A DNA stretch of 64,000 nt from Alphaproteobacteria bacterium (GTDB taxonomy: Bacteria > Pseudomonadota > Alphaproteobacteria > Micropepsales > Micropepsaceae): positions 1 to 64,000 of the forward strand of contig CANJBZ010000010.1 of NCBI GenBank assembly GCA_947473475.1, written 5' to 3'. Made by a program: the position numbers and the translations under genes. The notes beneath the pieces were generated by a model. That model did not search any database. It saw nothing but the letters and a program-made list of their open reading frames with translations, and was not told the DNA's origin. Positions 36,358-59,941 of the stretch are shown here, one piece after another (the stretch's first letter is position 1; each line of letters opens with the position of its first letter).

Positions 36358-36783
36358 TTAGTCGTCGCGCACGCGCGTCCGGTTTTGTTTCAGTTTGCCG
36401 CGGGCGACCTTCGACTCCAGGCGCCGCCGCTTGCTGGCCTTTGTCGGCTTGGTCGGCCTGCGCGGCTTAGGCGGTGTTGCCGCCCGGGTAATCAGTTCGC
36501 TAAGCTTGGCGCGGGCATCGGCGCGATTGCGTTCCTGGGTGCGATGCGCCCGCGAGACGATGATGAGAACACCGTCTTTGGTCAGACGCTGACCGGACAG
36601 CACAATCAGGCGGGCGCGAACATCGTCCCGCAGCGAGGGCGAATGCGCGACATCGAAGCGAAGCTGCACCGCGCTGGAGACTTTGTTGACGTTCTGGCCG
36701 CCCGGTCCCGAAGCCAGCACGAAGCTTTCCGAGAGTTCGTCCTCGTCGATGGAGATGCTGTCGGTGATGGGGATGCGGGGCAT
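36358..36783 (-). CDS. arfB: alternative ribosome-rescue peptidyl-tRNA hydrolase
   Basis: 141 aa, ArfB/YaeJ. Has ESFVLASGPGGQNVNKVSSA with the catalytic GGQ, then RLIVLSGQRLTKDGVLIIVS and a Lys/Arg-rich tail (KPRRPTKPTKASKRRRLESK) that enters the mRNA channel of stalled ribosomes. It hydrolyses peptidyl-tRNA when no stop codon is present. Normal length and motifs. Single gene, 83 bases after alanine dehydrogenase. Confidence 0.95.
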   Translation of the reverse strand: MPRIPITDSISIDEDELSESFVLASGPGGQNVNKVSSAVQLRFDVAHSPSLRDDVRARLIVLSGQRLTKDGVLIIVSRAHRTQERNRADARAKLSELITRAATPPKPRRPTKPTKASKRRRLESKVARGKLKQNRTRVRDD

Positions 36784-36810
36784 GGCGTTTCATAGCGCAA
36801 ATGCGGTGAG

Positions 36811-36860
36811 CGCGCGCCCCCTCCGTCGCTTCGCGACACCTCCCCAGTAAACACGAGGGA
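36811..36860. repeat. divergent copy of palindromic element A
   Basis: GCGCGCCCCCTCCGTCGCTT, CGCGACACCTCCCC and AGTAAACACGAGGG follow element A base order with scattered changes and no second hairpin. It lies in the short gap between arfB and alanine dehydrogenase. Confidence 0.55.
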
Positions 36861-52204: not shown

Positions 52205-54475
52205 ATGAACACGATCACCGATCTTTCCCGGCGCGGCGTGCTGCAGAACACGGGCGCGCTTTTCGTGGCTTTCTCTATGGCCGATGCAGGCGCCGCAATG
52301 GCAGCCGCCGCGACCGCCGACGGCAGGCCGCCACTGCTGCCGACCGAGCTTGATTCGTGGATTTCGATTTCCCGCGAAGGCATGGTCACCGTCTATTTCG
52401 GCAAGATCGACGGCGGCCAGGGCACCGATCTGGCCATGGTGCAGATCGTCGCCGAAGAAATGGATATGCCGGTGAAGAATGTCGGCATCGTCCAAGGCGA
52501 TACCGCCCGTACCGTGAACCAGGGCGGCGCTTCGGGCAGCACCGGCGTGCGCTTTGCGGGTGCGGCTCTCCGGCAAGCGGGCGCCGAAGCCCGCCGCGTG
52601 CTGGTGAATCGCGCCGCCGAAAAGCTCGGCGTGCCGGCCGAGCGTTTGACGGTCACCGACGGCGTCGTATCCATGATGGGCGATCCGTCGAAGAAGATCA
52701 GCTACGCTGAAATCATGAATGGCGGCTTTTTCCATTCGGAGATCGGCTGGAACAAGCAATACGGCAACCCGCTGGCGCTGACGTCGCCCGCTAAGCCCAA
52801 ATCCCCGAAGGACTACAAGGTCGTCGGCACCTCGCCGCCGCGCCTGGACGTCCATGGCAAGGTGTTCGGCACCACCCCGTGGGTGCAGGACATCCGCGTC
52901 GAAGGCATGCTGCACGGCCGCATGATTCGTCCCTCGATTGCGGGAGCATCGGTCGTCGCGGTCGATGAATCCTCGATCGCTAATATTCCGGGCGCCAAAG
53001 TTGTCCGCAAAGGCGATTTCCTAGGCGTCGTCGCGCCCAAGGAATGGGACGCCATCAAGGCGTCGCAGTCGCTGAAAGTGACGTGGTCGCAAGTGGCCGA
53101 TCCTTTCCCGGATCAGGCCCAGCTTTACGAGCACATTCGCAAGGCCCCGATCAGCAAATCCGACGAACAGAAGAAGGGCGACATCGACGCGGGCTTCGCC
53201 AAAGCCGCCAAGATCGTCGAGGCCGAATATGAATGGCCGTTCCAATCCCATGCCAGCATGGGTCCGGGCTGCGCCGTCGCCGATGTGAAAGCGGACGGCA
53301 CGACGACGATCTGGACGGGCACGCAGAAGCCCCACTTCGCGGCGCAGGGCGTTGCCGGCTGCCTCGGCGTCCCCGTCGAAAAAGTACACGCGATCTGGGT
53401 CACGGGCCCTGGCTCTTACGGCCGCAACGATGCGGGCGATGTCACCATGGACGCCGCCGTCATGTCGCAACTCACCGGCAAGCCGGTGCGCGTGCAGTAC
53501 ATGCGCTACGAAGGCCATGGCTGGGATCCGAAAGCCCCGGCCTCTGTGCACCGCGCGCGTGCTGCGCTCGATGCGAACGGCAATGTGCTGGCTATCGATT
53601 TTGTGTCGAAGGGCTTCTCGCGTATCGAGACCAATTCGACGGAAGCCGAGCCGGGCGACACGCTGGCCGGGATGCTTCTCGGGCACAAATCTGCGCGGAC
53701 GCAGGCGTTCAACCTGCCGGAAAACGCCTACACCTTCGAAAACAAGCGGCTTGCGTGGGAAACCGTGGCCGCCCTGCTTCCCGGCCCCTCGCCGCTGCGC
53801 ACCTCGCACATGCGCGATCCGCTGGGACCGCAAATCGCCTTCGCCAATGAATCCTTCATTGACGAAGTGGCGTTCGCGGCGAACGCCGACCCGGTGGAAT
53901 TCCGCCTGAAGTATCTGAGCCAAGAGCGAGACCGCGCCGTCGTTCAGGCTGCGGCGGAAAAAGCCGGATGGAAGCCGGGCAAAGCGGGCGCCCGCCGCAC
54001 GCAGCGGGGCGACATCGTCACCGGGCGCGGCGTTGCCTATTCGCAGCGCACCGGCACAATGGTCGCCATCGTCGCGGATGTCGAAGTGAACACGAAGACG
54101 GGCGCGCTGCGCGTGCCGCGTGTCACCGTTGCGCATGATTGCGGCTGCATCGTCAATCCCGATGCGCTTCGCCGCGTGATCGAAGGCAACGTCGTGCAAG
54201 GCCTGTCGCGTTCGATCCACGAAGAAGTGCAGTTCGACCGCAAGAACGTGCGCAGCGTCGATTGGCTGACCTATCCGATCGTGGACATCACGGAAGCACC
54301 GCCGCAGATCGACATCGTGCTGCTGAACCATCCCGACGCGATGTCGACGGGTGCTGGTGAAGCCACCATGCGTCCGCTGGCGGCAGCCATCAACAACGCG
54401 ATCTTCGAAGCAACCGGTTCGCGCATTCGCCGCGCGCCGCTGACGCCGCAACGGATTCGCACCTCGACTGTGTAA
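52205..54475 (+). CDS. Tat-exported molybdopterin-binding subunit (IorB type)
   Basis: 756 aa. A twin-arginine-like signal (LSRRGVLQNTGALFVAFSM) fits the isoquinoline 1-oxidoreductase branch, which works in the periplasm. TVYFGKIDGGQGTDLAMVQI, GGASGSTGVRFAGAALRQAG, KVFGTTPWVQDIRVEGMLHG, WTGTQKPHFAAQGVAG, GSYGRNDAGDVTMDAAVM and GAGEATMRPLAAAINNAIF show the xanthine-dehydrogenase-type Mo domains, with the catalytic Glu in GAGE. No FAD subunit or cytochrome is in the operon. Substrate probably an N-heterocycle or aldehyde; not determined. Confidence 0.92.
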   Translation: MNTITDLSRRGVLQNTGALFVAFSMADAGAAMAAAATADGRPPLLPTELDSWISISREGMVTVYFGKIDGGQGTDLAMVQIVAEEMDMPVKNVGIVQGDTARTVNQGGASGSTGVRFAGAALRQAGAEARRVLVNRAAEKLGVPAERLTVTDGVVSMMGDPSKKISYAEIMNGGFFHSEIGWNKQYGNPLALTSPAKPKSPKDYKVVGTSPPRLDVHGKVFGTTPWVQDIRVEGMLHGRMIRPSIAGASVVAVDESSIANIPGAKVVRKGDFLGVVAPKEWDAIKASQSLKVTWSQVADPFPDQAQLYEHIRKAPISKSDEQKKGDIDAGFAKAAKIVEAEYEWPFQSHASMGPGCAVADVKADGTTTIWTGTQKPHFAAQGVAGCLGVPVEKVHAIWVTGPGSYGRNDAGDVTMDAAVMSQLTGKPVRVQYMRYEGHGWDPKAPASVHRARAALDANGNVLAIDFVSKGFSRIETNSTEAEPGDTLAGMLLGHKSARTQAFNLPENAYTFENKRLAWETVAALLPGPSPLRTSHMRDPLGPQIAFANESFIDEVAFAANADPVEFRLKYLSQERDRAVVQAAAEKAGWKPGKAGARRTQRGDIVTGRGVAYSQRTGTMVAIVADVEVNTKTGALRVPRVTVAHDCGCIVNPDALRRVIEGNVVQGLSRSIHEEVQFDRKNVRSVDWLTYPIVDITEAPPQIDIVLLNHPDAMSTGAGEATMRPLAAAINNAIFEATGSRIRRAPLTPQRIRTSTV

Positions 54476-54547: not shown

Positions 54548-55603
54548 TTAGTGCGAGACGCGGTTCGCCGGAACAATCATCGGCTGATAGGAAAAGACTT
54601 CCCGGCTTGTGGGATCCACATAGACCTTGACCCAGTTCACGTCGTTGGTGCCGGTCTGTGCGTTGTCGCCGAATGTCTCCACACGCGTGAAGTTCTCCAC
54701 GCGCTTGCCTGCCGAATCCAGCAACGGCTTATCGACGCGGAAGTAATGAGAATCGCCATGCACGTAGGCGACAGGCTTGCTGAACGCGACGACTTCGTTG
54801 CGTAGTGCGACGAGATAGTCCTTGTAACCGTCCGGGGCCGCGTCGGTTTCGACAAGCGTTTGGGCGTTGCGCAGCGGCGCACGAGTCGAGTCGCTTAAAT
54901 CAAATCCCACATCCGCCTGAGCAATAACCATGACGGCAACCGACTTCCGATCTTTCGCGTAGGCAAAGCTATCCTGCAGCCACTTGATATTGGCCGCATT
55001 GCGCGCCGCATATTCCGCCGGATCGGGATTTGTGTCGCACAGATTGTTGCAAGAACCCTGAACGTTCATGGTGATGTACGTGACGCTGCCGACGGTCCAA
55101 CGGCGGTTCTCGACGCAGCCCACGAAGGCTCCGGCCTGATTGAGGCACAGCTTTGAATCCTGCTTTTGTTGCAAAATCGGGTGCTGGCCGAGCGAATAAT
55201 TGTTGGAAAAGAACACCTGACGCTCATGGTCCAGGCGTTCGCGCGAATTGAAGCCGCCATTGTTGGGGCGGTCGCAGTCCACCCAATCGTTGTCGCCGGG
55301 CGTGAACATCGCCGCGGATTCCAGCGAACTGAACCATCCGAGTGCCCGTGTGTAGAGCGCATCGTCTCAGGCGCTGTTCGAGCCCTGCTTCAAGTCGCCA
55401 TCGTTGATGGAAAACGTGACTTTCGCCGCATTGATATCGGCGAACAGTGCGGGAAGAGCGGCCTCTTGCGCTGCGGAATAGGGCAGGTCGCCCCAGAGCG
55501 CGACGGTCGTTCTCGCAACAGAGGCGGCGTCGGCAACAGCGGAAAACACGAATGGCGCGACCAATGCGGTAGCGAGCAGGCTTGATCTCGTGAAAAGTTT
55601 CAT
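54548..55603 (-). pseudogene. exported metallophosphoesterase-like protein with one in-frame TGA
   Basis: Signal peptide SSLLATALVAPFVFSAVADA, then TTVALWGDLPYSAAQEAALP and VTFSINDGDLKQGSNSA, a TGA at 55369-55367, and in the same frame DDALYTRALGWFSSLESAAM, FTPGDNDWVDCDRPNNGG, VAVMVIAQADVGF and VAYVHGDSHYFRVDKPLL. WGDLPY, DGD, GDNDW and GDSHYF are the metal motifs of the calcineurin-like fold, split across the stop. As I recall the family, a cysteine sits where the TGA lies (GS...C.DALY). No other lesion occurs in 350 codons, so it is either a recent nonsense mutation or a selenocysteine codon. Confidence 0.75.
55316..55339 (-). other. hairpin 27 bases after the in-frame TGA
   Basis: On the minus strand GGAT, a GG bulge and TTCAG pair with CTGGA and ATCC around the tetraloop TTCG. 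It lies downstream of the TGA of the phosphoesterase frame. A bacterial selenocysteine insertion element would be a hairpin in this area, but the apical loop begins about 38 bases from the TGA, at the far edge of the accepted range. Confidence 0.4.
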
Positions 55604-56763: not shown

Positions 56764-57099
56764 TTACCGTTCGACCCAATCGAGCGTCGTCCAGAATTCG
56801 TGGTTGCCCGTGTAGGAGATCATGCCGATGCCGATGAAGGCGGCGCACATGACGGCCAGTAACGCCGAACGCGCCACCCGTTGCCGGGCGGCGGCCACGG
56901 GAGCGGGTGTCAGCTGGCCCTGCGCGCCGTTCAACAGCGTCCAATTCCGCTCCATCTCACCCAGCGCCGCGGCGTTTGCCGCATCCGCCCGCCATGTATC
57001 GAGAGCGACGCGCTCTTCCACGGCCATGACGCCGCGGCGGCATTTCGCGAACCACAGAGCCGCGGCGTGTTCACGGTGCGCCATCTCCTGTTTGCTCAT
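56764..57099 (-). CDS. short FecR-like anti-sigma protein (DUF4880 plus one helix)
   Basis: 111 aa. The N-terminal cytoplasmic domain (AALWFAKCRRGVMAVEERVA, then LDTWRADAANAAALGEMERN) is the sigma-binding DUF4880 part of FecR/PupR regulators. It is followed by one membrane helix (ALLAVMCAAFIGIGMISY) and stops 15 residues later. The periplasmic FecR domain of about 200 residues, which senses the receptor, is missing. The stop lies just beside a large palindromic element, so truncation by that element is likely. The ATG overlaps the sigma gene by 4 bases. Confidence 0.82.
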   Translation of the reverse strand: MSKQEMAHREHAAALWFAKCRRGVMAVEERVALDTWRADAANAAALGEMERNWTLLNGAQGQLTPAPVAAARQRVARSALLAVMCAAFIGIGMISYTGNHEFWTTLDWVER

Positions 57100-57617
57100 G
57101 GTTGGTTCTCCGAATTGCGGCAGGCGCGCACGACACGCAGCATCGCCTCGGCGATGTGCTTCTCAACCGTTCCGTTGCTGACGTTCATCCGCCGTGCAAT
57201 CGCCGCATAGCTAAGCCCTTCAAACCGATGCAGCGTGAATGCCTGCCGGCAGCGAGGAGGAAGATCGTCTATGGCGGCAAGCGCGCGCTCCAACTCCTGC
57301 TTTCCGGCGAGCACCCGTTCCGGATCAGGGGAAGAAGCTAAGGCCGGCGCCGCGCCAAGCTCGTGCATTACAGCCGCATCGCGCCGTTCCTGACGGCGAC
57401 GGTCGAGAAAAAGATTTCGGGCGATCCGCATCAGATAGCGGAGCGGATCGCGCACCGCACCGGGCTTTCTGATCTCAAGCGCCCTGATGCATGCGTCTTG
57501 GGCAACATCTTCCAACTCGGCTGCGCGCCGACCCTGGACTCGCTGCTTGAGAACAAGCGTGCGACAGGCTTGCACCAGTCCGCCCTTCTCGTCTTTCGCC
57601 GTTTGCCGGTTGCCCAT
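57096..57617 (-). CDS. FecI-type ECF sigma factor
   Basis: 173 aa. Region 2 is seen in LEDVAQDACIRALEIRKPGA and PLRYLMRIARNLFLDRRRQE; region 4 in ALAAIDDLPPRCRQAFTLHR and FEGLSYAAIARRMNVSNGTV, EKHIAEAMLRVVRAC. It belongs to the FecI group, which drives expression of ferric-siderophore receptors. GGGGAGGG precedes ATG 57617. Divergent from the TonB receptor, 131 bases apart, and overlapping the anti-sigma gene, the standard layout of a cell-surface signalling locus. The intergenic bases show no clear Fur box. Confidence 0.92.
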   Translation of the reverse strand: MGNRQTAKDEKGGLVQACRTLVLKQRVQGRRAAELEDVAQDACIRALEIRKPGAVRDPLRYLMRIARNLFLDRRRQERRDAAVMHELGAAPALASSPDPERVLAGKQELERALAAIDDLPPRCRQAFTLHRFEGLSYAAIARRMNVSNGTVEKHIAEAMLRVVRACRNSENQP

Positions 57618-57748: not shown

Positions 57749-59941
57749 ATGCCGGTATTCGATCAAGACCAACATCGCGGCCGCCGCGCCGGACGCTTTC
57801 TCGCGGGGACCGCCCTTGGGCTGGTATTAACCACACCGGCGGCGGCCGGTGAAAACCCGGCGGCGCGCAACGAGCAGCCGGAGCAGGTCATCATCCAGGG
57901 CATGCGGCCGGACGATTACCGGGTCGAGGTGCCGAATTTCGGCAAATTGACCGAGCCGCTGATCAATACGCCCCAATCCATCGAGATCATCTCCGACCAG
58001 ATTCTACAGGACCGCGGCGTCACCAACCTCAACGATGCGCTGCGGAACGTGCCGGGCATCAGTCTGGGCGCCGGCGAGTTCTCGTGGCAGGGCAACAATC
58101 CCAGCATCCGCGGTTTCGTCGCCCGCACCGACATGTTCCTGGATGGCATCCGCGATTTCGGCAGCTACTACCGCGATGCCTTCAACCTGCAGCAGATCGA
58201 AGTCTTAGAAGGCCCCTCCTCGATTTTGTTCGGGCGAGGCTCGACCGGCGGCGTCATCAATCAGGTGACCAAGATCCCGTCTCTTGACGGGTTCGTTAGG
58301 GGCACACTGGTCGGGGGCACCGATTTCACACGCCGCGCCACCGTCGATATTGACGCGCCCATCCCCGAACTTGGGCCCAACGCCGCCTTCCGCCTCACCG
58401 GCATGGTGCACGCCCAGAGTGTGGCGGAGCGTAATGTCGCCAAGCAAACCCGCTTCGGCGTAGCGCCAAGTCTCGCGCTCGGCATCGGCACGCCGACGCG
58501 TTTCACGCTGTCCTATTTCGACCAGAATGCGAACGACGTGCCGGACTACGGCGTGCCCTGGTTCGGGTCCGCCCCGGCGCCGGTGCCGCGGCAGAATTTC
58601 TACGGCTTCACATCCGACTTCCTGAAAACCGGAACGGATATGGCGACGTTCAAAGCCGAGCACGACTATTCCACGCGTCTCACCGTGCGCAACCAGGTGC
58701 GCTATGCCCATTACACGCGCGACTTCCGCATCACCGAACCGATCATCACAGCGCCCTTGAGCACACCGCTGTCATCGGTGGCCGTGAGCCGGAATATCTG
58801 GGGCGGAAGCAGCGTCGAAAGCATGATCTGGGATCAGGCCGACGCGACCGCCCGCTTTACCACTGGACGTATCGAGCACAGCCTCGTCGCGGGCATCGAA
58901 GGCGGGCAGGAAGAATCCCAGCCGGAATTCGACAACAGCACGGGCGTACCAACGGTGCCGTTGCTGGCGCCCGATCCGCATCGCCCCTTCAGCGCGGCAG
59001 TCACCTTCCCGCGTTTCAAAGCCGATACCAAGGGCACGAGTTTCGCCGCCTTTGTGATCGACACCGCCAAGCTGGGCGAACAGTGGGAAGTGAATCTGGG
59101 ACTGCGGTGGGATTATTTTGCCGCGGACTACAAAGCAGCGCGCTATTCGACGACAACGCCGGGCCTAGTCACCGGCAACGATGCGCTGCTGCGGATCGAC
59201 CGCATGACGAGCTATCGCGCGGCGCTCGTGTATAAGCCCGAAAGCAACGGCTCGATTTATCTGGATTACGGGACATCGTTCAATCCCTCGGCGGAATCGC
59301 TGTCGTTCATCGTGAACGCGCGGGCGTTTGGCACTGGCAATGCGTTTCTTGCGCCGGAAAAGAACCAGACGGTCGAACTCGGAACCAAATGGGACGTTCT
59401 CAACAATCAGCTTTCGCTGACGGGCGCGGTGTTTCGGCTGGAGAAGCTCAACGCGCGTGTACCTGACCCGAGTAATCCCGGCTTCAACATGCTGGAAGGC
59501 ACGCAGCGGGTTGACGGCTTAAGCCTGAATGCCACCGGGCGCCTGACAGAGAAATGGCAGCTCACAGCGGGCTACACGCTTCTGGACAGCCATGTCATCA
59601 AGTCCGCGGCGGGCGCGGCCCCGGAAGGCTCTCCGCTTGCCAATACGCCCAAGAACGCTTTCACCTTCTTCACCGAATACCGTCTGCTGCCTGCGTTTGA
59701 AATCGGCGCCGGAGGCCAGTTCGTATCATCGCGTCTGGCCCAGAACGTTCCGCCCATCAAGAAAGTGCCGGGCTATTGGACGTTCGACCTGATGGCGAAA
59801 TATGATCTATCCGAAAAGATGAGCCTGCAGCTCAACGTGAACAACATCTTCGACAAATATTATTACGACCAGCTCCATCCGTTTCACGTGGTGCCCGGTC
59901 AAGGCCGCTTGGCGCTGCTGACATTGAACTTCCGGCTTTGA
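57749..59941 (+). CDS. TonB-dependent siderophore receptor
   Basis: 730 aa outer-membrane receptor. Signal peptide FLAGTALGLVLTTPAAAG; TonB-box-like EQVIIQGMRPDDY; plug domain with TEPLINTPQSIEIISDQIL, DRGVTNLNDALRNVPGISLG, GNNPSIRGFVARTDMFLDG and EVLEGPSSILFGRGSTGGVI; then the 22-strand barrel ending GRLALLTLNFRL. It has no N-terminal signalling domain of the FecA/PupB kind before the TonB box, so it may not feed signals to the FecI/FecR pair. Ligand probably a ferric catecholate or hydroxamate. Five bases before piuC. Confidence 0.92.
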   Translation: MPVFDQDQHRGRRAGRFLAGTALGLVLTTPAAAGENPAARNEQPEQVIIQGMRPDDYRVEVPNFGKLTEPLINTPQSIEIISDQILQDRGVTNLNDALRNVPGISLGAGEFSWQGNNPSIRGFVARTDMFLDGIRDFGSYYRDAFNLQQIEVLEGPSSILFGRGSTGGVINQVTKIPSLDGFVRGTLVGGTDFTRRATVDIDAPIPELGPNAAFRLTGMVHAQSVAERNVAKQTRFGVAPSLALGIGTPTRFTLSYFDQNANDVPDYGVPWFGSAPAPVPRQNFYGFTSDFLKTGTDMATFKAEHDYSTRLTVRNQVRYAHYTRDFRITEPIITAPLSTPLSSVAVSRNIWGGSSVESMIWDQADATARFTTGRIEHSLVAGIEGGQEESQPEFDNSTGVPTVPLLAPDPHRPFSAAVTFPRFKADTKGTSFAAFVIDTAKLGEQWEVNLGLRWDYFAADYKAARYSTTTPGLVTGNDALLRIDRMTSYRAALVYKPESNGSIYLDYGTSFNPSAESLSFIVNARAFGTGNAFLAPEKNQTVELGTKWDVLNNQLSLTGAVFRLEKLNARVPDPSNPGFNMLEGTQRVDGLSLNATGRLTEKWQLTAGYTLLDSHVIKSAAGAAPEGSPLANTPKNAFTFFTEYRLLPAFEIGAGGQFVSSRLAQNVPPIKKVPGYWTFDLMAKYDLSEKMSLQLNVNNIFDKYYYDQLHPFHVVPGQGRLALLTLNFRL

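Follow-up and report, generated by a model that had tools for sequence, protein, structure and literature searches.

A TGA at the column of an invariant cysteine in a secreted phosphoesterase gene of a Micropepsaceae bacterium: probably a recent nonsense mutation and not a selenocysteine codon

The gene described here can be compared with two kinds of known system. With the calcineurin-like metallophosphoesterases (PF00149; structures 1UTE and 7OV8 of purple acid phosphatase, 5EBB of SMPDL3A, 2HY1 of Rv0805 and 2ZO9 of GpdQ) it shares the fold and the GD...GD...GDN...GDSH order of the metal motifs, but the protein encoded in the window, by which we mean the whole stretch of 64,000 nt that was analysed, has GDLPY for GDxH, GDN[DE] for GNHE and GDSH for GHxH. 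A family of secreted phosphoesterases from Bradyrhizobium, Nostoc, Ideonella, Methylococcaceae and others, with Bradyrhizobium sp. BTAi1 (L015) as an example, shares the motifs and the two columns of invariant cysteines, at 56-68% identity along the protein; all these relatives have a Cys and an open frame, whereas the window copy has TGA at the first of the two columns.

The other system is that of bacterial selenoproteins with Cys homologues, which the window gene resembles in having a TGA aligned with an invariant Cys. Insertion of selenocysteine in bacteria needs SelA, SelB, tRNA-Sec and SelD along with a SECIS element just after the UGA (PMC12013277), and a 2022 review covering 87 prokaryotic selenoprotein families names no phosphoesterase, phosphatase, metallophos or calcineurin (PMC9312934), which counts against a selenoprotein in the present case. 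Unlike the described selenoproteins, the window gene comes without Sec machinery, a convincing SECIS or any other Sec-containing member, and its Cys is apparently structural.

The frame listed in Table 1 spans 351 codons with a single internal stop and no frameshift, and the in-frame TGA is codon 79, in the context GSNSA-stop-DDALY. We confirmed the initial annotation in its description of a phosphoesterase frame that is intact on either side of one TGA at this place, with no further lesion and with metal motifs on both sides (GDLPY and GDLK before the TGA, GDND and HGDSH after it). On the opposite strand a gene for a molybdopterin-binding oxidoreductase-type large subunit (52205-54475, plus) converges on the phosphoesterase gene. 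Farther along the window an ECF sigma factor gene (57096-57617, minus) is followed by a small FecR-like frame (FecR by eye only), and a TonB-dependent receptor gene (57749-59941, plus) is divergent from both, a layout typical of iron or nutrient signalling.

Table 1. Positions in the window of the interrupted gene and its parts
Feature	Position	Strand	Evidence
Interrupted gene of a secreted metal-dependent (calcineurin-like fold) phosphoesterase	54548..55603	-	Frame, homologues, model
In-frame TGA, codon 79, column of invariant Cys	55367..55369	-	Cys in 50/50 homologues
Codon 110 (TGC), the other invariant Cys, proposed to form a disulfide with position 79	55274..55276	-	Cys in 50/50
First metal motif GDLP(Y), codons 38-41, before TGA	55481..55492	-	Asp39 in 50/50
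Second metal motif GDLK, codons 69-72, before TGA	55388..55399	-	Asp70 in 49/50
Third metal motif GDND, codons 103-106, after TGA	55286..55297	-	Gly-Asp-Asn in 50/50
Last metal motif GDSHY, codons 283-287, after TGA	54743..54757	-	His286 in 49/50
N-terminal signal-peptide-like stretch, codons 1-26	55526..55603	-	By eye; low-confidence model segment
UUCG hairpin, unconvincing as bSECIS	55316..55339	-	Folding vs shuffles

A model of the read-through protein, built on a 27-member alignment (pLDDT 86.7, pTM 0.87), has the metallophosphoesterase fold. The closest solved structures found by Foldseek are those of purple acid phosphatase, SMPDL3A, Rv0805 and GpdQ (E down to 1e-9, probability 1.00); it should be noted that the TM-scores are about 0.4-0.7 and the sequence identity about 12%. 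The metal-ligand motifs occur in order and in a variant form, with Asp39, Asp70, Gly-Asp-Asn103-105 and Gly-Asp-x-His283-286 conserved. The read-through protein matches no Pfam family, the PF00149 cut-off is passed by two distant homologues (L128 and L130), and a sequence search of the PDB with the family profile gave no matches. Judging by the signal-peptide-like N-terminus and by the metal motifs, all four of which are intact, the gene product is likely to be a metal-dependent phosphoesterase that is exported.

Position 79 is Cys in all 50 homologues of an aligned set made up of close relatives, farther genome and plasmid relatives and 19 relatives from the class, across many phyla and at 28-68% identity. 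The Cys column proposed in the initial annotation is hence real. Position 110, directly after the GDN motif, is likewise Cys in 50 of 50. The close relatives (55-68% identity) are from Bradyrhizobium, Nostoc, Ideonella, Methylococcaceae, Acidobacteriota and others, and the search for plasmid homologues gave distant relatives only. TGC was found 18 times and TGT 8 times among the 26 codons counted at the Cys79 column, TGA was not found (0 of 26), and no relative has TGA there. Of the other search rows with an apparent internal TGA, those of L134 and L147 proved to have no stop inside the aligned frame. A further search row with an internal TGA, at 36502-36819 of the window, is not a broken gene; it overlies an intact 141-aa frame for an ArfB-like peptide-release factor (36358-36783, minus).

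Among the remaining cysteines, Cys153 and Cys163 are each present in 18/50 relatives and Cys185 and Cys189 each in 22/50, which suggests that they may be gained and lost as pairs. As Cys pairing in an exported protein is the pattern that disulfides give, Cys79 is most likely structural, with a putative disulfide to Cys110 beside the metal centre. This has a bearing on the selenoprotein explanation, by which the UGA is decoded as selenocysteine via SelB and tRNA-Sec: the pairing of TGA with a Cys invariant in 50/50 homologues speaks for it, but the Cys probably belongs to a disulfide of a hydrolase and is not a redox centre, and a Sec homologue was found in 0 of the 50 relatives.

Further we investigated the selenocysteine machinery in the assembly (3.87 Mb, 66 contigs, 99.02% complete, 0.3% contamination). 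SelA, SelB and SelD gave no match over the cut-off in the 3.87 Mb, while control genomes gave one or two over the cut-off for each model. The best sub-threshold matches were other proteins, namely CysN, IF-2 and TypA for SelB, SufS for SelA, and ThiL, PurL and PurM for SelD. tRNA-Sec is absent, and none of the 42 tRNAs of the genome has a UCA anticodon; the only RF01852 match over the cut-off is tRNA-Ser(UGA), and of 41 matches to a UCA-anticodon pattern two lie inside known tRNA genes (C25 tRNA-Gly and C44), with no UCA tRNA among the 41. The initial annotation had made its selenocysteine reading depend on selA, selB, selC and selD, and with none of them in a 99% complete genome that reading falls. 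Selenocysteine is rarely used in the lineage, since a true SelA occurs in only 1 of the 96 genomes of the family, which also counts against a selenoprotein. This sole SelA, L124 (G021:C6:4632-5966), scores 582 bits.

The genome encodes RF2, the release factor that terminates at UGA, and tRNA-Trp occurs with the CCA anticodon only. Together with the missing UCA tRNA, these already refute a genome-wide reassignment of UGA, for which nothing speaks beyond the open frame and to which we assign a vanishingly small probability.

The UUCG-loop hairpin 27 bases downstream of the TGA, which the initial annotation had proposed, does exist (55339-55316, -5.5 kcal/mol) and is a weak point in favour of a selenoprotein. 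However, 28 of 200 shuffled sequences fold as well (z -1.0), stretches that take in the TGA and what lies downstream show no stability beyond that of shuffles (z +0.55 to +1.43), and an Rfam search over the locus gave chance matches only. The hairpin is not convincing as a bSECIS, and no significant RNA structure supports recoding. The selenocysteine reading fails every requirement tested but the Cys/TGA pairing; it is close to refuted, and we consider it extremely improbable that this is a selenoprotein. It would be equally far-fetched to take the product as the first selenocysteine-containing metallophosphoesterase, perhaps with a selenylsulfide between Sec and Cys110, whose machinery dropped out of the draft assembly or consists of unrecognised components.

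The differences between the window gene and L015 fall 76/63/163 on the three codon positions, the third dominating, with dN about 0.26 and dS at or above 1.2. Given these third-position-heavy differences, the low dN relative to dS and the lack of any other lesion, it seems that selection on the gene lasted until recently. As synonymous sites are near saturation, the stop has no datable age. The frame, which relatives have open, is cut short here, and we consider it probable that the TGA is a real stop, caused by a recent single-base nonsense mutation in a well-preserved gene that has thereby become a young pseudogene allele. A nonsense mutation is favoured because there is one TGA, no frameshift, intact motifs and no Sec machinery, and because RF2 is present. 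Translation would end at the TGA after 78 codons, leaving a product of 78 residues with the signal peptide and only two metal motifs; if translation began again at Met99, the next Met in frame, the resulting frame of 253 aa would be missing the signal peptide and two metal motifs. Loss of function and a recent origin of the stop are inferences.

Counting against a nonsense mutation is that the TGA falls exactly on an invariant Cys while the rest of the gene is unbroken, and a base error would look alike. TGA at any Cys makes up 3-6% of the possible nonsense changes in the gene, and TGA at either invariant Cys 1-2%; such a coincidence is unlikely for one preset gene, and unremarkable for an item picked by a genome scan for the Cys/TGA pattern. 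The main alternative is a single-base sequencing or assembly error, in which case the organism makes an ordinary Cys-containing enzyme. This agrees with a lone substitution in an otherwise intact gene and with a draft assembly of 66 contigs that lacks coverage information, but substitution errors are uncommon in consensus assemblies and the assembly has, for the rest, a completeness of 99% and a contamination of 0.3%; we regard an error as the less likely cause, though one to be reckoned with. The choice offered by the initial annotation, selenocysteine or fresh pseudogene, is therefore settled in part: the pseudogene is supported, jointly with a base error, by a single lesion and no Sec machinery, selenocysteine is not, and the premise of an invariant Cys holds but is better explained by a disulfide with Cys110.

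Low-level functional readthrough of the UGA by a near-cognate tRNA, giving some full-length enzyme, could also be imagined, as bacteria are known to misread UGA at a basal level and the frame past the stop is conserved. Near-cognate reading of UGA mostly inserts Trp, however, here at an invariant Cys; the genome has no suppressor tRNA, and a recent stop accounts equally well for the intact frame, so that we hold readthrough to be very unlikely.

The remaining 95 genomes of the order gave no close homologue of the gene, which is consistent with lateral acquisition and dispensability, and the gene is probably laterally acquired and sporadically distributed. Residues 31-78 (55370-55513, minus), ahead of the TGA, are unusually diverged, with an identity ratio of 0.725 against 0.92-1.11 in 21 relatives, and have no clear affinity to any other subgroup of homologues. 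Recombination, an unsampled subfamily or relaxed constraint could be the cause; this is a mild oddity with no clear bearing on the stop.

Taken alone the interrupted gene is of little importance, but it illustrates that TGA can pair with a fully invariant Cys column in a gene that does not encode a selenoprotein; such false positives must be filtered out of homology-based selenoprotein searches by asking whether the Sec machinery is present. The family of secreted phosphoesterases to which the gene belongs is mostly missed by Pfam, and the paired invariant cysteines would be a useful mark for its annotation.
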